Part shown: piece by piece, positions 382 through 61,386 of the stretch | Layout: each line of letters starts with the position of its first letter | Numbering within the stretch: position 1 is the first letter of the stretch | Assembly: GCA_030535975.1 (NCBI GenBank) | Contig: JAUNQW010000001.1 | Location: 62,001 to 126,000, forward strand | DNA from: Atopococcus tabaci | GTDB taxonomy: Bacteria; Bacillota; Bacilli; Lactobacillales; Carnobacteriaceae_A | Direction of reading: 5' to 3' | Length of the DNA stretch: 64,000 nt | Made by a program: the position numbers and the translations under genes | Notes under the pieces: model-generated | Databases searched by the model: none | The model's input: the letters and a program-made list of their open reading frames with translations, nothing else | What the model was told of the DNA's origin: nothing

Positions 382-2205
382 ATGGATAAGAAAGAAGCCC
401 AAAAAAGGATTGAAAATACAAGAAATTTCTCAATCATCGCACACATTGATCATGGGAAATCGACATTAGCTGACCGAATCTTACAGGAAACCCATACCAT
501 CAGTGAGCGGGAAATGGAAGAACAAGTATTAGACTCCATGGACTTAGAAAAAGAGCGTGGAATTACTATCAAACTAAATACAGTGGAAGTGGAATATCAG
601 GCTAAAGATGGAGAGACTTACATCATTCATCTGATCGATACTCCCGGACACGTAGATTTTACCTATGAAGTCTCCCGGAGTTTAGCTGCCTGTGAAGGAG
701 CCATTTTAGTAGTAGATGCTGCCCAGGGGATTGAAGCGCAAACCTTGGCCAACGTTTATTTAGCTGTGGATAATAATTTAGAAATAGTACCTGTCATTAA
801 TAAAATCGATCTGCCTGCTGCAGATCCGGAACGAGTGAGAAAAGAAATCGAAGATGTCATCGGACTAGATGGAGATACTGCTATCCCGGCCAGTGCCAAA
901 ACAGGCGAGGGGATAGAAGACATACTGGAAATGATTGTCCAGGAAGTGCCTGCTCCAGATGGCGACTTAGATGCCCCGCTGAAAGCTTTAATTTTTGATT
1001 CTGCTTATGACTCTTATCGTGGGGTGGTTTTAAGTGTCCGTATTATCGATGGAATAATTAAGCCGGGAGACGAGATTCAAATGATGTCGAATGGCAAAAT
1101 ATTTGAAGTAACAGAAGTGGGTGTTTTTTCACCGAGCCCGCTAAAACGCGACCAGCTCATGGTGGGAGAGGTAGGCTATATTACGGCTAATATTAAAACT
1201 GTCCGTGACACACGGGTAGGGGATACTATTACCCTTGCTTCAACTCCGACCGAAGAAGCACTGCCCGGTTACCGTCAAATGAACCCGATGGTTTTCTGTG
1301 GACTGTATCCGACAGATTCAGCGGATTACTTAGATTTACAAGAAGCCCTCGAGCGTCTGCAGTTAAATGATGCCGCTTTATGGTTTGAACCAGAAACGTC
1401 TCAAGCTTTAGGTTTTGGTTACCGCTGCGGCTTTTTAGGTATGCTTCATATGGACGTTATTCAAGAAAGAATCGAGCGTGAGTTTGGTTTAGATATCATC
1501 ACCACAGCTCCTTCTGTTATTTACCATGTCATCAAAACAGATGGTGAATTAATTGAAGTGGATAATCCTTCAGAGATGCCGGACCCCACAGAAATTGAAG
1601 CTGTTGAAGAGCCTTATGCCCGGGCAGAAATTACCGTTCCAAGTGATTATATCGGGGCGGTTATGGAAATTTGTGAAGAGAAACGCGGCAGTTTCCAAAC
1701 CATTGATTATATGGATGATATCCGAGTCAATGTCATTTATGAAATCCCTTTATCAGAGATTGTTTATGATTTCTTTGACCGCTTAAAATCGAATACAAAA
1801 GGATATGCTTCCTTAAGTTATGAACTCATCGGCTATCAGGAAAGCGATTTAGTAAAAGTGGATATTTTACTACACGGTGAACGTGTCGATGCTTTAAGCT
1901 TTATCTCTCATAAAAGCAACTCGCAATTACGTGGCCGCCAAATTGTGAAAAAATTGCGTGAATTAATTCCCAGACAACAATTTGAGATTCCGGTTCAAGC
2001 AGCTATCGGGCATAAAATTATTGCCCGTGAAAACATTAAAGCTTACCGTAAAGACGTTACGGCCAAATTATACGGTGGAGACCAGACGCGTAAAGATAAG
2101 TTGTTGAAGAAACAAAAAGCAGGTAAAAAACGGATGAAGAATGTTGGAGCCGTAGAAGTTCCTCAAGAAGCTTTCATGGCTGTATTAAATTTAGACGAAG
2201 AATAA
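382..2205 (+). CDS. lepA: Elongation factor 4 (LepA, translational GTPase)
   Basis: 607 aa, full length for the family. LepA binds the ribosome and is linked to ribosome biogenesis and back-translocation under stress. The G1 motif AHIDHGKST is at residues 20-28, the RGITIK effector (G2) region near 60, DTPGH (G3) near 87, and NKID (G4) near 139. EF-G-like domains II, III and V follow, then the LepA-specific C-terminal domain ending in [11 protein letters not shown]. The start follows a GTAGG-type ribosome-binding site and a clear promoter. It is transcribed apart from dnaJ. Confidence 0.97.
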
Positions 2206-2257
2206 GACTTAGAGTAACCAGCCGGTAAATTAATCAGATGTTAAATTGAGGTGCCTT

Positions 2258-2809
2258 ATGGAAGAAACAGAATTTTCGACTTATTTTTGTAAAATGATGG
2301 AAGAGAGTCAGGCTAATTTTTATTGGGATTTAAGTTATAATGAAGAACAAGAAATTCATGAATGTTTTTTTATGCTGGAAAGCGAAATACCCGAAGATGC
2401 ATCTTACAAGTTGATGGATGCCAGGGGGAGAGTCAACACAAGTGAGAAACTTCTTTTAGCTGATCGGATAGCTTTCTATGATCTTTCAAGCTCATATATT
2501 GACCCCGGTTTTTACTTAAAAGCCTTTCCAGTCGATAAGGAGGAAGGTATTGAAAAAGGGTTTATAGAAGCTTTTATTAAATATCTTCATCAGCTTGTGA
2601 ATGGACAACGTGTCGCCTTAGAGAACTTTCTCAAGCAGGATAATACACAAGTACCAGAAGAACAGTTTGCTTTTACCTGGCAAGATGAGAGCTTCAGGCA
2701 GACTATAAAAACATTAAAAGATACTCAGCGTTATGACTTTGATAAAATAACATTTGATTTAACGGAAACAAAAGATAAAAACATTTTAGAAAAATTAAAA
2801 GATGACTAA
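2258..2809 (+). CDS. DUF3013 family protein
   Basis: 183 aa, acidic, cytoplasmic (no signal peptide or membrane segment). The pattern of an N-terminal 'NFYWDLSYNEEQ..HECFFMLE', a central 'FYD...S..D...YL..FP...K.GI...F' and a following helical part resembles the DUF3013 family known from streptococci and lactobacilli; the function is unknown. I use the ATG at 2258 because TGAGGTG lies directly before it; a TTG four codons earlier has no ribosome-binding site. It lies 52 nt after lepA with no terminator between, so the two are probably cotranscribed. Confidence 0.65.
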   Translation: MEETEFSTYFCKMMEESQANFYWDLSYNEEQEIHECFFMLESEIPEDASYKLMDARGRVNTSEKLLLADRIAFYDLSSSYIDPGFYLKAFPVDKEEGIEKGFIEAFIKYLHQLVNGQRVALENFLKQDNTQVPEEQFAFTWQDESFRQTIKTLKDTQRYDFDKITFDLTETKDKNILEKLKDD

Positions 2810-2830
2810 TTAAGTGAAAATGAGATCAAG

Positions 2831-2870
2831 AAAAAGCACGCCTCGATTAAAAACCGAGGCGTGCTTTTGT
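2831..2870. terminator. Bidirectional terminator between the DUF3013 gene and pyc
   Basis: A GC-rich stem (AAAAGCACGCCTCG paired with CGAGGCGTGCTTTT) has A on the left and T on the right. It serves the convergent genes on both sides. Confidence 0.92.
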
Positions 2871-2885
2871 TGATTGGCTGCGCTT

Positions 2886-5800
2886 TTATTCAAATTCGAT
2901 GAGAAGGTCTCCACCTTCAATTTGTTCACCTTCATTGACATAGATTTCTTTAATAACACCGTCACTCGTCGCGTGGATGGCTGATTCCATCTTCATCGCT
3001 TCTGTAACGATAATTGTATCATTCTGCTTCACTTCGTCTCCAACTTTACAGCTGATCGAAATAACAGTACCCGGCATTTGAGCACCTACATGCTTAGGAT
3101 TAGTTTTATCAGCTTTAGCTTTGAGAGCTACTGAGTCTGATAGATTATGGTCAATGACTTCGACAGCTACCGGCTTACCATTTAAGCTGTAGAACATTGT
3201 TCTTTGACCGTCTTCTTTAACTGGTCCTTGTGCAAGATATTTGATCGTCACCTGCTTACCGTTTCGAAGCGTAACATCGATTTCTTCTCCAAAATCTAAA
3301 CCATAGAAGAAGCTTGGGGAGTCAAGGACTTCAATCTTATCAAACGTTTCATGATTAATAATATAATCTTTAAATACTTTTGGATAGATGGCATTACTCA
3401 ACAGGGCACGATCATCAATCTCTTCTTCCGGCATAATCTCAAGTAACTCTTCCTTAGCTGCTTCATAGTCGTAAGCAGGGATATGGTTACCCGGGCGGTC
3501 AGTGATGATATCGCCATTCTTCACGATAACCTCTTGCAATTCTTTGTTAAATCCGTTGACGGTTTGCCCGATTTCACCTCTCATGAAAGATACGACTGAA
3601 TCTGGGAAGTCTAAGTTTTTCCCTTCAGAAATAACTGTTTCCTCATCCAAATCATTTTGTACCATGAAGAGTGACATATCTCCAACTACTTTCGAAGAAG
3701 GTGTTACCTTGATGATGTCACCGAATAATAAGTTAACTCGGCGGTACATTTCCAGTACTTCATCGAAGCGGTCGCCTAAACCAACTGAACGTGCTTGTGC
3801 CAAGATATTGGAGTACTGTCCACCCGGCATTTCGTATTTGTATACGCCTGTCCACGGAGAGACCAGGTCACTTTCAAATGGTTTGTAGTATTGGCGGGTA
3901 GTTGACCAATATTTTTCCATTTCATCATTAGCATCTGGATTAACTTTCACGCCGCGGTCTTTTCCTTGGCGGGCATAGTAAAGGGCATTTCCATCCGGCT
4001 GAGAGTTTGTTCCAGAAATGGCCGCATTGGCCACGTCCACGATATCCACACCCGCATCGATAGCACGGGAATAAGCTGTGACAGCATTACCGGCAGTGTC
4101 ATGCATGTGGAGGTGGATTGGAATATTAACTTCATCTTTTAATGTCTTCACTAATAAGTAGGCAGCTTCTGGTTTTAAGATACCGGACATGTCTTTGATA
4201 CCTAAGGTGTGCACCCCGTAAGCTTCCAGTTCTTTCGCCATATCGACATAGTAGTCTAATGTGTAAGTGCTTGAACGCTCAGGATCTAAGATATCTCCCG
4301 TGTAGCAGACGGTACCTTCAACTAGCTTACCTGTCTCTAATGCAGCTTCAAGAGGTAGCTTCAGCGTTTCCATCCAGTTGAGAGAATCAAAGATACGGAA
4401 GACATCGATGCCGTCTTCTGCCGACTGTTCAATAAATTTCTTGATGACATTATCCGGATAGTTTTTATAACCGACCGCATTTGAAGCACGTAATAACATT
4501 TGGAACGGAATATCAGGAATAGCCTGACGTAACCTTTCTAAACGGTCCCATGGACTTTCATTTAAGAAGTTATAGGCCACGTCGAAGGTTGCTCCTCCCC
4601 ACATTTCAAGTGAGAATGCATCCTTCATCGTAGCATTGATGTAAGGTGCTAGTTCTAACATATCGCGTGTACGTAATCTCGTCGTTAAGATCGACTGGTG
4701 GGCATCCCGCAGAGTAGTATCAGTGATGAGCGCATCATCTTCAGCTAAAACAGCTTTAACTACAGCATCTGGTCCTTCTTTATCCAAGATATGCTTCAGC
4801 GTTCTCTGATCAGATGCCATACTTGTAATGGAAGGCACTGAGCGGGTTTCAAATTTAGGTTTAGTGTCATCTGAAATACCTGGGAATCCATTCACTGTTA
4901 CATTCGCAAGATAGTTAAGTAATTTAACATCTCTATCTTTTGCTTCGTCCGTGTCGAATAATTCCGGATGGTTATTAATTAAATTAGTGCTGTAATCACC
5001 TGATTTGAACAGAGGATGTTTGATGATGTTTTTCAAAAAGGCAATATTTGTTTTTAAGCCGACAATTCTTGTTTCGTCTAAAGCACGTTCTGTTTTATCT
5101 AAAACATCAGAGATAGATTCTCCATAGGCACAAATTTTCACAAGTAAAGAGTCATAGTGAGGACTGATAACAGCACCGTCATGAGCATTTCCTTGGTCAA
5201 GTCTGACTCCGATACCAGAAGGGGCTACATAATTAACGATACGGCCTGAATCCGGAGCAAAGTCGTTGGCAGGGTCTTCTGTCGTTACACGACATTGGAT
5301 GGCATAGCCGTCTAATGTGATGCTTTCTTGTGAAGGGATATTAATTTTTTCTTCGTGTAAATTCTCACCGTCAGCAACTAATAACTGAGCTTTAACGATG
5401 TCGATACCTGTCACTAATTCAGTGATCGTATGTTCAACCTGAATACGAGGGTTCACTTCGATAAAGTAAAAGTCTTCTCCTGAGACAAGGAATTCAACGG
5501 TACCGGCATTAATGTACTTAATATTTTGAGCTAACTGTAAAGCAGCTTGGGCCAGTTCTTCACGTACTGATTCAGTTAAGGAGAATGAAGGGGCGACTTC
5601 CACAACTTTCTGGTGGCGGCGTTGAACCGAACAGTCCCTTTCAAATAAGTGAACGATATTTCGGTGCTCGTCCCCTAAAATCTGCACTTCGATATGTTTT
5701 GGATTCTCAATAAATTTCTCTACATATAAAGAATCATCCCCAAAAGAGTTCATTGACTCTGATTTTGCACGGTCGTAAGATTCCTGGACTTCAGCTTCCT

Positions 5801-59198: not shown

Positions 59199-60560
59199 AT
59201 GGCTAAGGACAGGACAGAACGACATGCTTTTAGTGATTTTGTAACTGAGAAGACTTTTAAAAATCCGGCTCTATATCAAGCATGGAAGGACTATGAATCT
59301 TTTGTACCGAGGGCAGTGTTTTCAGATGCCGGTGCTCCAAGTATCTATTCCGACGGTATGACAGTTGACGAGGTCCATAAAAGATTTAAGTCGCAAGTTC
59401 CAAGTGAGCACTTTGCTTTTGAATCCCGCGAAGAATCTTTGAAATACACCTATCGCTCTGCAGAGAGGATGCCCGACTCTGAGAATCATTATGTGGCAAC
59501 CATTTATTTTCATTTCTTAGAACGGCGTCTCTTTTACTCTGAAATACGCATCCAGACCGACTCGGATTTAGAAAAGAATTTTATAAGTGAAAAGCAAAAA
59601 ACAGAGTGGATTAAAAACCGTGCAGACCTTGAAGAATTAGAGGCTGTTCAGCCTCAAACTTTCGGCCTGGCTCAAATGAAGATGCAGGGCGGGATGTCTT
59701 ATGAATTATTTGTTCCCTATGTGGATGATCAGGGGGTAGAACATGCGGAATTCTTTATGTTTCTCGACAATAAAATTGCTTTGGGGTACAGCTCGACCCT
59801 GGCTCGGGAATTTCAATCTGAGCGGAATAACTTATTGAGAAACTTGGTAGCTTTTGATCAGCACTTACGAAGAGCTCAGAAAGATACCCAGCTGGAAGAC
59901 AGCATCACCCATCTCACCCATCCATTTGATTCATTTATCACCCCCCAGACGATGGAAAATCCAGCCAGTCGCATGGCCTACCAATATTATAAAACGCTTT
60001 ATCACAACCATCCCCCAGCCGACTTCAACTTAAAGGAACTGGATGGCCGGCGGATAGAAGAGATTCAAAAATATTTCAGCGGTCCCAATGATCCTGTGCA
60101 TATGGAGGCAGGTGAGCGCGAAGACTATCTGTTTTATTTATTTGAATCAGAGGAAATCAACCCGTCGACAGAGAAGAAGAGACAGGCCGAACTCAAACTT
60201 TATTTCTATGACGGAGTCTTTACTTACGCGGATATTTTCGGACTGGATTCTTATTTCTCTGAGAATGACTTACTGTCTTTTAATGATATGCTCAAAGAAT
60301 TACCTAAAGGCACCCATCTGGAGAAATTTGAGGCATACGAACCTATAACGATGGGCTTTGCAGAGTTTAAATATGAAGATAAAAATCACAGGATTATTTT
60401 GACACCTCAAATAGAGGCTTCAAAAATGAAAATTATCAACTATGTCTTTATCGATGAAGTGATGGAGTATGCTTTTGCGACGGACTACACAGACATAAAA
60501 GATTCGATTAGAAATGCAATGACTCAAATTTTCATGAACTTAACTAAAAGTGAATTTTAA
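59199..60560 (+). CDS. Unrecognised protein with two tandem 230-residue modules
   Basis: 453 aa, no signal peptide or membrane helix, acidic. I do not recognise the family. It is an internal duplication at a constant offset of about 230 residues: DFVTEKTFKNPA (13-24) matches SFITPQTMENPA (245-256). ATIYFHFLERRLFYSEI (100-116) matches AELKLYFYDGVFTYADI (330-346). AVQPQTFGLAQMKM (149-162) matches AYEPITMGFAEFKY (379-392). The 'MTxDEVxxxF ... strand-rich' layout recalls SmpA/BLIP-like folds, a weak hint only. It lies 25 nt before the arsM gene and is probably in the same operon. Confidence 0.85.
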   Translation: MAKDRTERHAFSDFVTEKTFKNPALYQAWKDYESFVPRAVFSDAGAPSIYSDGMTVDEVHKRFKSQVPSEHFAFESREESLKYTYRSAERMPDSENHYVATIYFHFLERRLFYSEIRIQTDSDLEKNFISEKQKTEWIKNRADLEELEAVQPQTFGLAQMKMQGGMSYELFVPYVDDQGVEHAEFFMFLDNKIALGYSSTLAREFQSERNNLLRNLVAFDQHLRRAQKDTQLEDSITHLTHPFDSFITPQTMENPASRMAYQYYKTLYHNHPPADFNLKELDGRRIEEIQKYFSGPNDPVHMEAGEREDYLFYLFESEEINPSTEKKRQAELKLYFYDGVFTYADIFGLDSYFSENDLLSFNDMLKELPKGTHLEKFEAYEPITMGFAEFKYEDKNHRIILTPQIEASKMKIINYVFIDEVMEYAFATDYTDIKDSIRNAMTQIFMNLTKSEF

Positions 60561-60585: not shown

Positions 60586-61350
60586 ATGGATAAAAAACAG
60601 CAGGCAGTTAATGATTTATACGCAGGTGTGGCTCTAAGCGGTAAGCTGTATTCAGAGTTGACAGAAGAAGAAAACGCGAAGCAGATTGAAAAAATTTCCC
60701 GGTCATTTGGTTATGACCCCGAAGAGATTACTGAAGAAGCTAATATGGGCCTGGGCTGCGGAAATCCTTTGGAAAATGCCAATCCAGTCGAAGGAGAAGT
60801 CATCGTTGACTTAGGCTGCGGTAAAGGAATGGATACTTTTATTGCGAGTAAAAAAGTAGGATCAAGCGGCCGGGCCATCGGTGTTGACCGGCTGAGTGAA
60901 ATGATAGAAAGAGCAGAACAAATTTCTGATAAAAGAGGCTTTAAAAATACTGCTTTCATTCAATCTGACATTGATGATATCGATCTTCCAGATGAAATGG
61001 CAGACTGCATCATCAGCAATTGTGTCATCAATCTGGTGGCAGATAAATTAAAAGTCTACCAGGAAATCTTCCGCTTGCTAAAACCAGGCGGTCGGATATC
61101 GATTTCAGATATCGTGCTTTATAATCCGCTGCCCGAAGAAATAGCAGATGATCCCCGCCTGCATGCGACTTGAGTGGCTGGTGCAATTTCTGTGGAACAG
61201 ATATATGAAATTTTAGTTGCCAGCGGCTTTGAACAGATTGCAGTGATACAAGAACCGGTAACAGAAGCATATGCCGGCAAATGGGGACATGACCTGGATC
61301 TCAAACGTTATATCGAACGAGGTAAGATATTAGCTGTCAAGCCTCTTTAA
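60586..61350 (+). CDS. arsM: Arsenite methyltransferase (ArsM), probable selenoprotein with in-frame TGA
   Basis: 254 aa if the TGA at 61171-61173 is read as selenocysteine (residue 196); 195 aa if it stops. ArsM adds methyl groups from SAM to As(III). The family pattern is clear: GLGCGNP (conserved Cys58), IVDLGCGKGMD (SAM motif I), SNCVINL (Cys146), LLKPGGRISISDIV, then TGA followed by VAGAIS. Most members have Cys in that place (the arsenic ligand, Cys174 in the Cyanidioschyzon enzyme). After the TGA the frame continues 58 codons, in family style (YEILVASGFEQI...KILAVKPL), to TAA at 61348-61350. GGGAGGAATAAAG precedes the ATG. A nonsense mutation is the alternative; no other damage is seen. 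Confidence 0.75.
61171..61224 (+). promoter_or_regulatory. Candidate bacterial SECIS element at the arsM TGA
   Basis: After the UGA (61171-61173), 20 nt precede an apical GGA loop (61194-61196). The upper stem is AUUUCUGU (61186-61193) with ACAGAUAU (61197-61204), 7 pairs and one U-U mismatch. A lower stem pairs GCUGG (61177-61181) with CCAGC (61220-61224), with CAA / UUG above it. Known bacterial SECIS hairpins have a G-containing apical loop at about 16-37 nt after the UGA. The E. coli fdhF loop lies at about the same distance. The fold was drawn by hand. Confidence 0.6.
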
Positions 61351-61357
61351 CCTACTC

Positions 61358-61386
61358 AACCGAGCCTGAAAAGCGCTCGGTTTTTT
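61358..61386 (+). terminator. Terminator after full-length arsM
   Basis: ACCGAGC pairs with GCTCGGT over a 9-nt loop, then T6. It lies 8 nt after the distal TAA (61350), not after the TGA, which supports the gene ending at TAA. Confidence 0.88.

Follow-up and report, generated by a model that had tools for sequence, protein, structure and literature searches.

The window (the whole stretch of DNA analysed, positions 1-64000) contains a forward-strand arsM gene whose frame, including one in-frame TGA, is predicted to encode a selenocysteine (Sec)-containing protein (Table 1). Reading of the sequence confirmed a claim of the preliminary description that one TGA interrupts an otherwise intact ArsM frame, as this codon is the sole stop between the start and the distal TAA, in the residue context LHAT-*-VAGAIS. 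The 58 codons 3' of the TGA, said there to keep family character, are alignable with relatives up to the protein end, and the terminator placed after the TAA is visible by eye (arms CCGAGC at 61360-61365 and GCTCGG at 61375-61380, then six T); it was absent from the hairpin scan, presumably since its 9-nt loop exceeds the 8-nt limit of that scan. On the same strand, a gene whose 453-aa product matches no Pfam family (59199-60560) ends 25 bases 5' of the arsM start.

Table 1. Coordinates of the arsM locus in the window
Feature	Position	Strand	Remarks
arsM selenoprotein gene (predicted)	60586..61350	+	254 residues, Sec at residue 196, ends with TAA
Cys58 codon, GCGNP motif	60757..60759	+	Pairs with C. 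merolae ArsM Cys72 (alignment)
Cys146 codon, SNCVINL motif	61021..61023	+	Pairs with C. merolae ArsM Cys174 (alignment)
Predicted Sec codon (Sec196), in-frame TGA	61171..61173	+	Pairs with C. merolae ArsM Cys224 (alignment)
SECIS-like apical hairpin, UCUG-UGGAA-CAGA	61189..61201	+	Loop UGGAA, 19 nt 3' of UGA; position shared by four relatives (loop UGGAU)
Terminator-like inverted repeat, CCGAGC/GCTCGG then T6	61360..61386	+	3' of the distal TAA; read by eye

In a profile search, the top family for the protein was NF008823, arsenite methyltransferase (E 7e-71), at a score of 238.9 bits that does not reach the curated cut-off of 263 bits, and the next-best families were two ArsM-domain selenoprotein fusions, NF041537 and NF041536.

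Arsenic-ligand positions

All three As(III)-ligand positions of the family are kept in the alignment, i.e., the CGxP Cys, the SNCV Cys, and the Cys/Sec before VAGA. The pairings with the reference protein C. merolae ArsM (CmArsM; PDB 4fr0 and 4kw7; ligand numbering counted on the printed alignment) link Cys58, Cys146, and Sec196 of the window protein to Cys72, Cys174, and Cys224, which are the As(III) ligands of CmArsM, where the C174A and C224A variants are inactive (PMC3877260). The predicted Sec would thus stand in for a required ligand: CmArsM carries Cys at all three positions, whereas the window protein would carry Sec at the third. The TGA had been proposed to fall at the family's arsenic-binding Cys before V-A-G-A, and this placement holds.

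The TGA codon across ArsM homologues

At the Sec196 position, TGA occurs in six of 36 alignable ArsM homologues and TGC or TGT in the remaining 30, with no other codon, so that the in-frame UGA sits where homologues have Cys, the pattern by which a selenoprotein is recognized. Four more genomes of the order encode an ArsM with one TGA (45-51% identity to the window protein), always at the T-*-VAGA codon, and the five order proteins form one clade in the ArsM tree (support 100/99). The sixth (genome G652) belongs to another family outside the order, in a genome with tRNA-Sec; its tree position allows either one or two Sec origins. Across the phylum, ArsM was detected at E 1e-40 in 71 of 398 genomes, and among the matches listed only those of the window and of G652 have an internal TGA. 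Separately, ArsM matches without TGA in three genomes of family f5 (L074-L076) were rejected as Sec-ArsM candidates, being a longer, distinct ArsM type with Cys (363-367 aa frames), and a scan of the window protein against named genome contigs returned just one distant locus.

tRNA-Sec was found in every Sec-ArsM genome tested and also in most Cys-ArsM genomes tested, and therefore tRNA-Sec alone does not separate the two kinds of ArsM.

Selenocysteine machinery in the genome

The genome is a 1.33-Mb draft in 57 contigs, estimated to be 85% complete with 0.02% contamination. The four components of Sec machinery that the preliminary description had suggested searching for are all present over their cut-offs, namely selA (591 bits), selB (351 bits), selD (358 bits), and tRNA-Sec (67 bits), with ARAGORN and Rfam in agreement on the UCA anticodon. 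They span C49:56826 to C49:61779, in a contig order of tRNA-Sec, selD, a Se/S carrier (PF11823), selB, selA, a glycosyltransferase, grdA, and two glycine reductase component C subunits. In-frame TGAs also occupy known Sec sites in SelD, GrdA, and two GrdB genes (contexts CGG-U, CFV-U-T, and TST-U-GTC in this set), and the cell therefore appears to use Sec at least for glycine reductase.

The glycine/sarcosine/betaine reductase genes (positions 1786-5284 of locus L078, G000:C49:50000-69000; also L114 and L115) comprise component C alpha and beta, selenoprotein A, and two GrdB with in-frame TGA; such a Stickland-type pathway, present here in a small genome, is unusual for the presumed order.

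A SECIS-like hairpin after the UGA

Bacterial SECIS elements have been described by a rule requiring an apical loop of 3-9 nt with a G among its first two nucleotides (G or U often comes next), a stem of at least 4 bp, and a spacing of 16-37 nt after the UGA (PMC13188914). The window hairpin agrees with this rule in loop (61193-61197), stem (61189-61192/61198-61201, 4-5 pairs), and spacing. Four relatives have the loop UGGAU at identical spacing on a stem of (A)ACUU/AAGU(U), and across the five sequences two stem pairs are altered on both sides yet still paired, i.e., doubly compensated. Sliding the partners abolishes this compensation, yet 26 of 500 shuffles equal it in these five related sequences. 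The five codons of the hairpin form the longest base-identical run in the four f5 species (next longest, two codons), where 22% of comparable codons overall are base-invariant. The window's own 57 nt fold at −15.1 kcal/mol (−14.0 with the apical hairpin imposed) and those of the order relatives at −5.4 to −9.2 kcal/mol, with one of the four above the −7.5 bSECIS energy threshold. A similar hairpin with a GGA loop occurs in GrdA of the same genome.

Taken alone, the window hairpin is not significant, as 18% of synonymous shuffles fold as stably and 20% attain the same rule-based hairpin energy, and we therefore claim only comparative support for it. Hence, the hairpin with a G-containing loop noted in the preliminary description is present at a suitable distance and conserved, while significance in the single sequence was not reached.

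A probable selenocysteine-containing ArsM and its alternatives

We consider that the gene most probably encodes a selenocysteine-containing, ArsM-type SAM-dependent methyltransferase in which the TGA is read as Sec, with a rough probability of 0.9. This reading, already advanced in the preliminary description, is supported by the sel genes, the TGA/Cys alternation at one codon, the undecayed tails, and the conserved hairpin. Under it, the hairpin immediately 3' of the UGA would direct SelB and its Sec-tRNA-Sec to insert Sec at residue 196. The selenol of Sec196 would then join Cys58 and Cys146 as the third As(III) ligand, in the place of CmArsM Cys224, and the bound arsenic would receive its methyl groups from SAM, as expected from the family.

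The genomic neighbourhood bears on the substrate. In three relatives (G248, G147, and G328), arsM lies ~4-5 kb from selA and divergent from the sel genes, beside selD-selB-selA and not ars genes, and in G328 tRNA-Sec is 145 bases from arsM. No ars gene was recognized among the arsM neighbours examined, and the ACR3 arsenite pump was not found in the window's own genome, an absence that may reflect the incompleteness of a draft at 85%. These three relatives also share a conserved 168-aa protein gene between arsM and selD, divergent from arsM (L079:6416-6922, L080:6352-6858, and L081:11716-12222); its L079 copy gave no match in Pfam or NCBIfam, and the gene is possibly selenium-linked.

Such a setting, together with the missing ACR3 and the score under the NF008823 cut-off, would suit an ArsM-fold selenoprotein acting on another metalloid, e.g., a selenium compound, rather than arsenite. 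We regard this as unlikely, since the three arsenic-ligand positions are retained, no other family comes close to NF008823 arsenite methyltransferase in score, and clustering of a selenoprotein gene with sel genes may merely reflect joint inheritance. Equally doubtful is a lineage-specific Sec-ArsM clade with a real role in selenium handling, e.g., by methylating reduced selenium, although, if true, it would explain both the proximity to the sel operon in relatives and the lack of recognized ars genes. A selenium substrate is thus possible but less likely than arsenite.

A nonsense mutation, leaving a decaying pseudogene with a truncated 195-residue product, is very improbable. The long branch of the window protein (1.56 in the ArsM tree) and the lack of ACR3 would fit decay, but five species of the order and a sixth from outside it share TGA at this codon, other ArsMs carry just Cys there, and ligands Cys58 and Cys146 are retained. 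Decay 3' of the TGA, which had been named as grounds for abandoning the Sec reading, is seen in none of the relatives, and the tail is constrained in all; Ka/Ks is below 1 on either side of the codon (rough values, with synonymous sites near saturation), and protein-level constraint is, on this sequence evidence, maintained 3' of it. Ordinary TGA stops behave differently. In ~320 kb of the genome sampled (the window plus about 250 kb of other stretches, L078 and L119-L130), 245 ORFs reach at least 150 aa. Of these, 11 end in TGA, the arsM codon being the only such case within the window; a homologous open continuation follows the TGA in arsM alone, whereas the other ten lead into decayed frames. 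These ten ORFs, together with a full RF2 gene in the genome, also rule out a changed code with TGA as Trp. A second match to the prfB model (G000:C9:13392-14411, L118; 281 bits, under the cut-off) is most likely RF1 (prfA).

That sequencing or assembly turned a TGC or TGT into TGA, as a single consensus error in an incomplete 57-contig draft could do, is more improbable still, as both the TGA at this codon and the conserved hairpin 3' of it recur in independent genomes and the genome holds Sec machinery. No more credible is a contaminating contig that would leave the organism unable to insert Sec: the sel genes are on C49 and the window on C8 of a draft assembly, but estimated contamination is minimal, relatives carry the TGA-containing arsM and sel genes on one contig, and the SelA groups with those of its own family f1 and of f5 (support 100/100), which argues that the C49 cluster is native rather than stray.

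Known Sec-ArsMs and implications for the lineage

Sec-ArsM is not a new family. A protein of the NF008823 type, WP_011987699.1, has already been tabulated as such (PMC13188914, PMC9312934); both reviews credit an earlier paper, named as Fomenko et al. 2007 in PMC13188914, and this newer review gives the motif UxxG, to which Sec-V-A-G of the window protein corresponds. The two proteins, likened here by listed family and motif, come from different lineages, and the window protein falls under the curated score of that family. The fusions NF041537 (ArsM/AhpD) and NF041536 (ArsM/DUF2284) are likewise selenoproteins with UxxG (PMC13188914), and it is their ArsM part that the window protein resembles in the profile search; they carry two or three Sec, whereas the window protein consists of one ArsM domain with one predicted Sec. 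What is new is the occurrence of Sec-ArsM with a full Sec system in the window's lineage, apparently one of lactic-acid-type bacteria, and because the enzyme had been catalogued, the overlooked trait proposed in the preliminary description concerns the lineage and not the enzyme. Its further suggestion that Sec use is rare in Lactobacillales fares less well: full SelA is present in 41 of 395 genomes of the order, presumably Lactobacillales as taken there, so that Sec use in it is not so rare. A 2016 survey listed SeU transfer to one species, and our literature search on Sec in Lactobacillales or Carnobacteriaceae found nothing specific beyond the surveys cited here.

Together, these results place a full Sec gene set, glycine reductase, and a probable Sec-ArsM in the presumed Lactobacillales, from which an early survey, in 2006, had recorded an orphan selD only (PMC1794560). 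Automatic annotation that halts at the TGA would leave a 195-residue protein lacking one arsenic ligand. Finally, the natural set of Sec (6) and Cys (30) ArsMs offers a direct way to test how a selenol affects arsenic binding.
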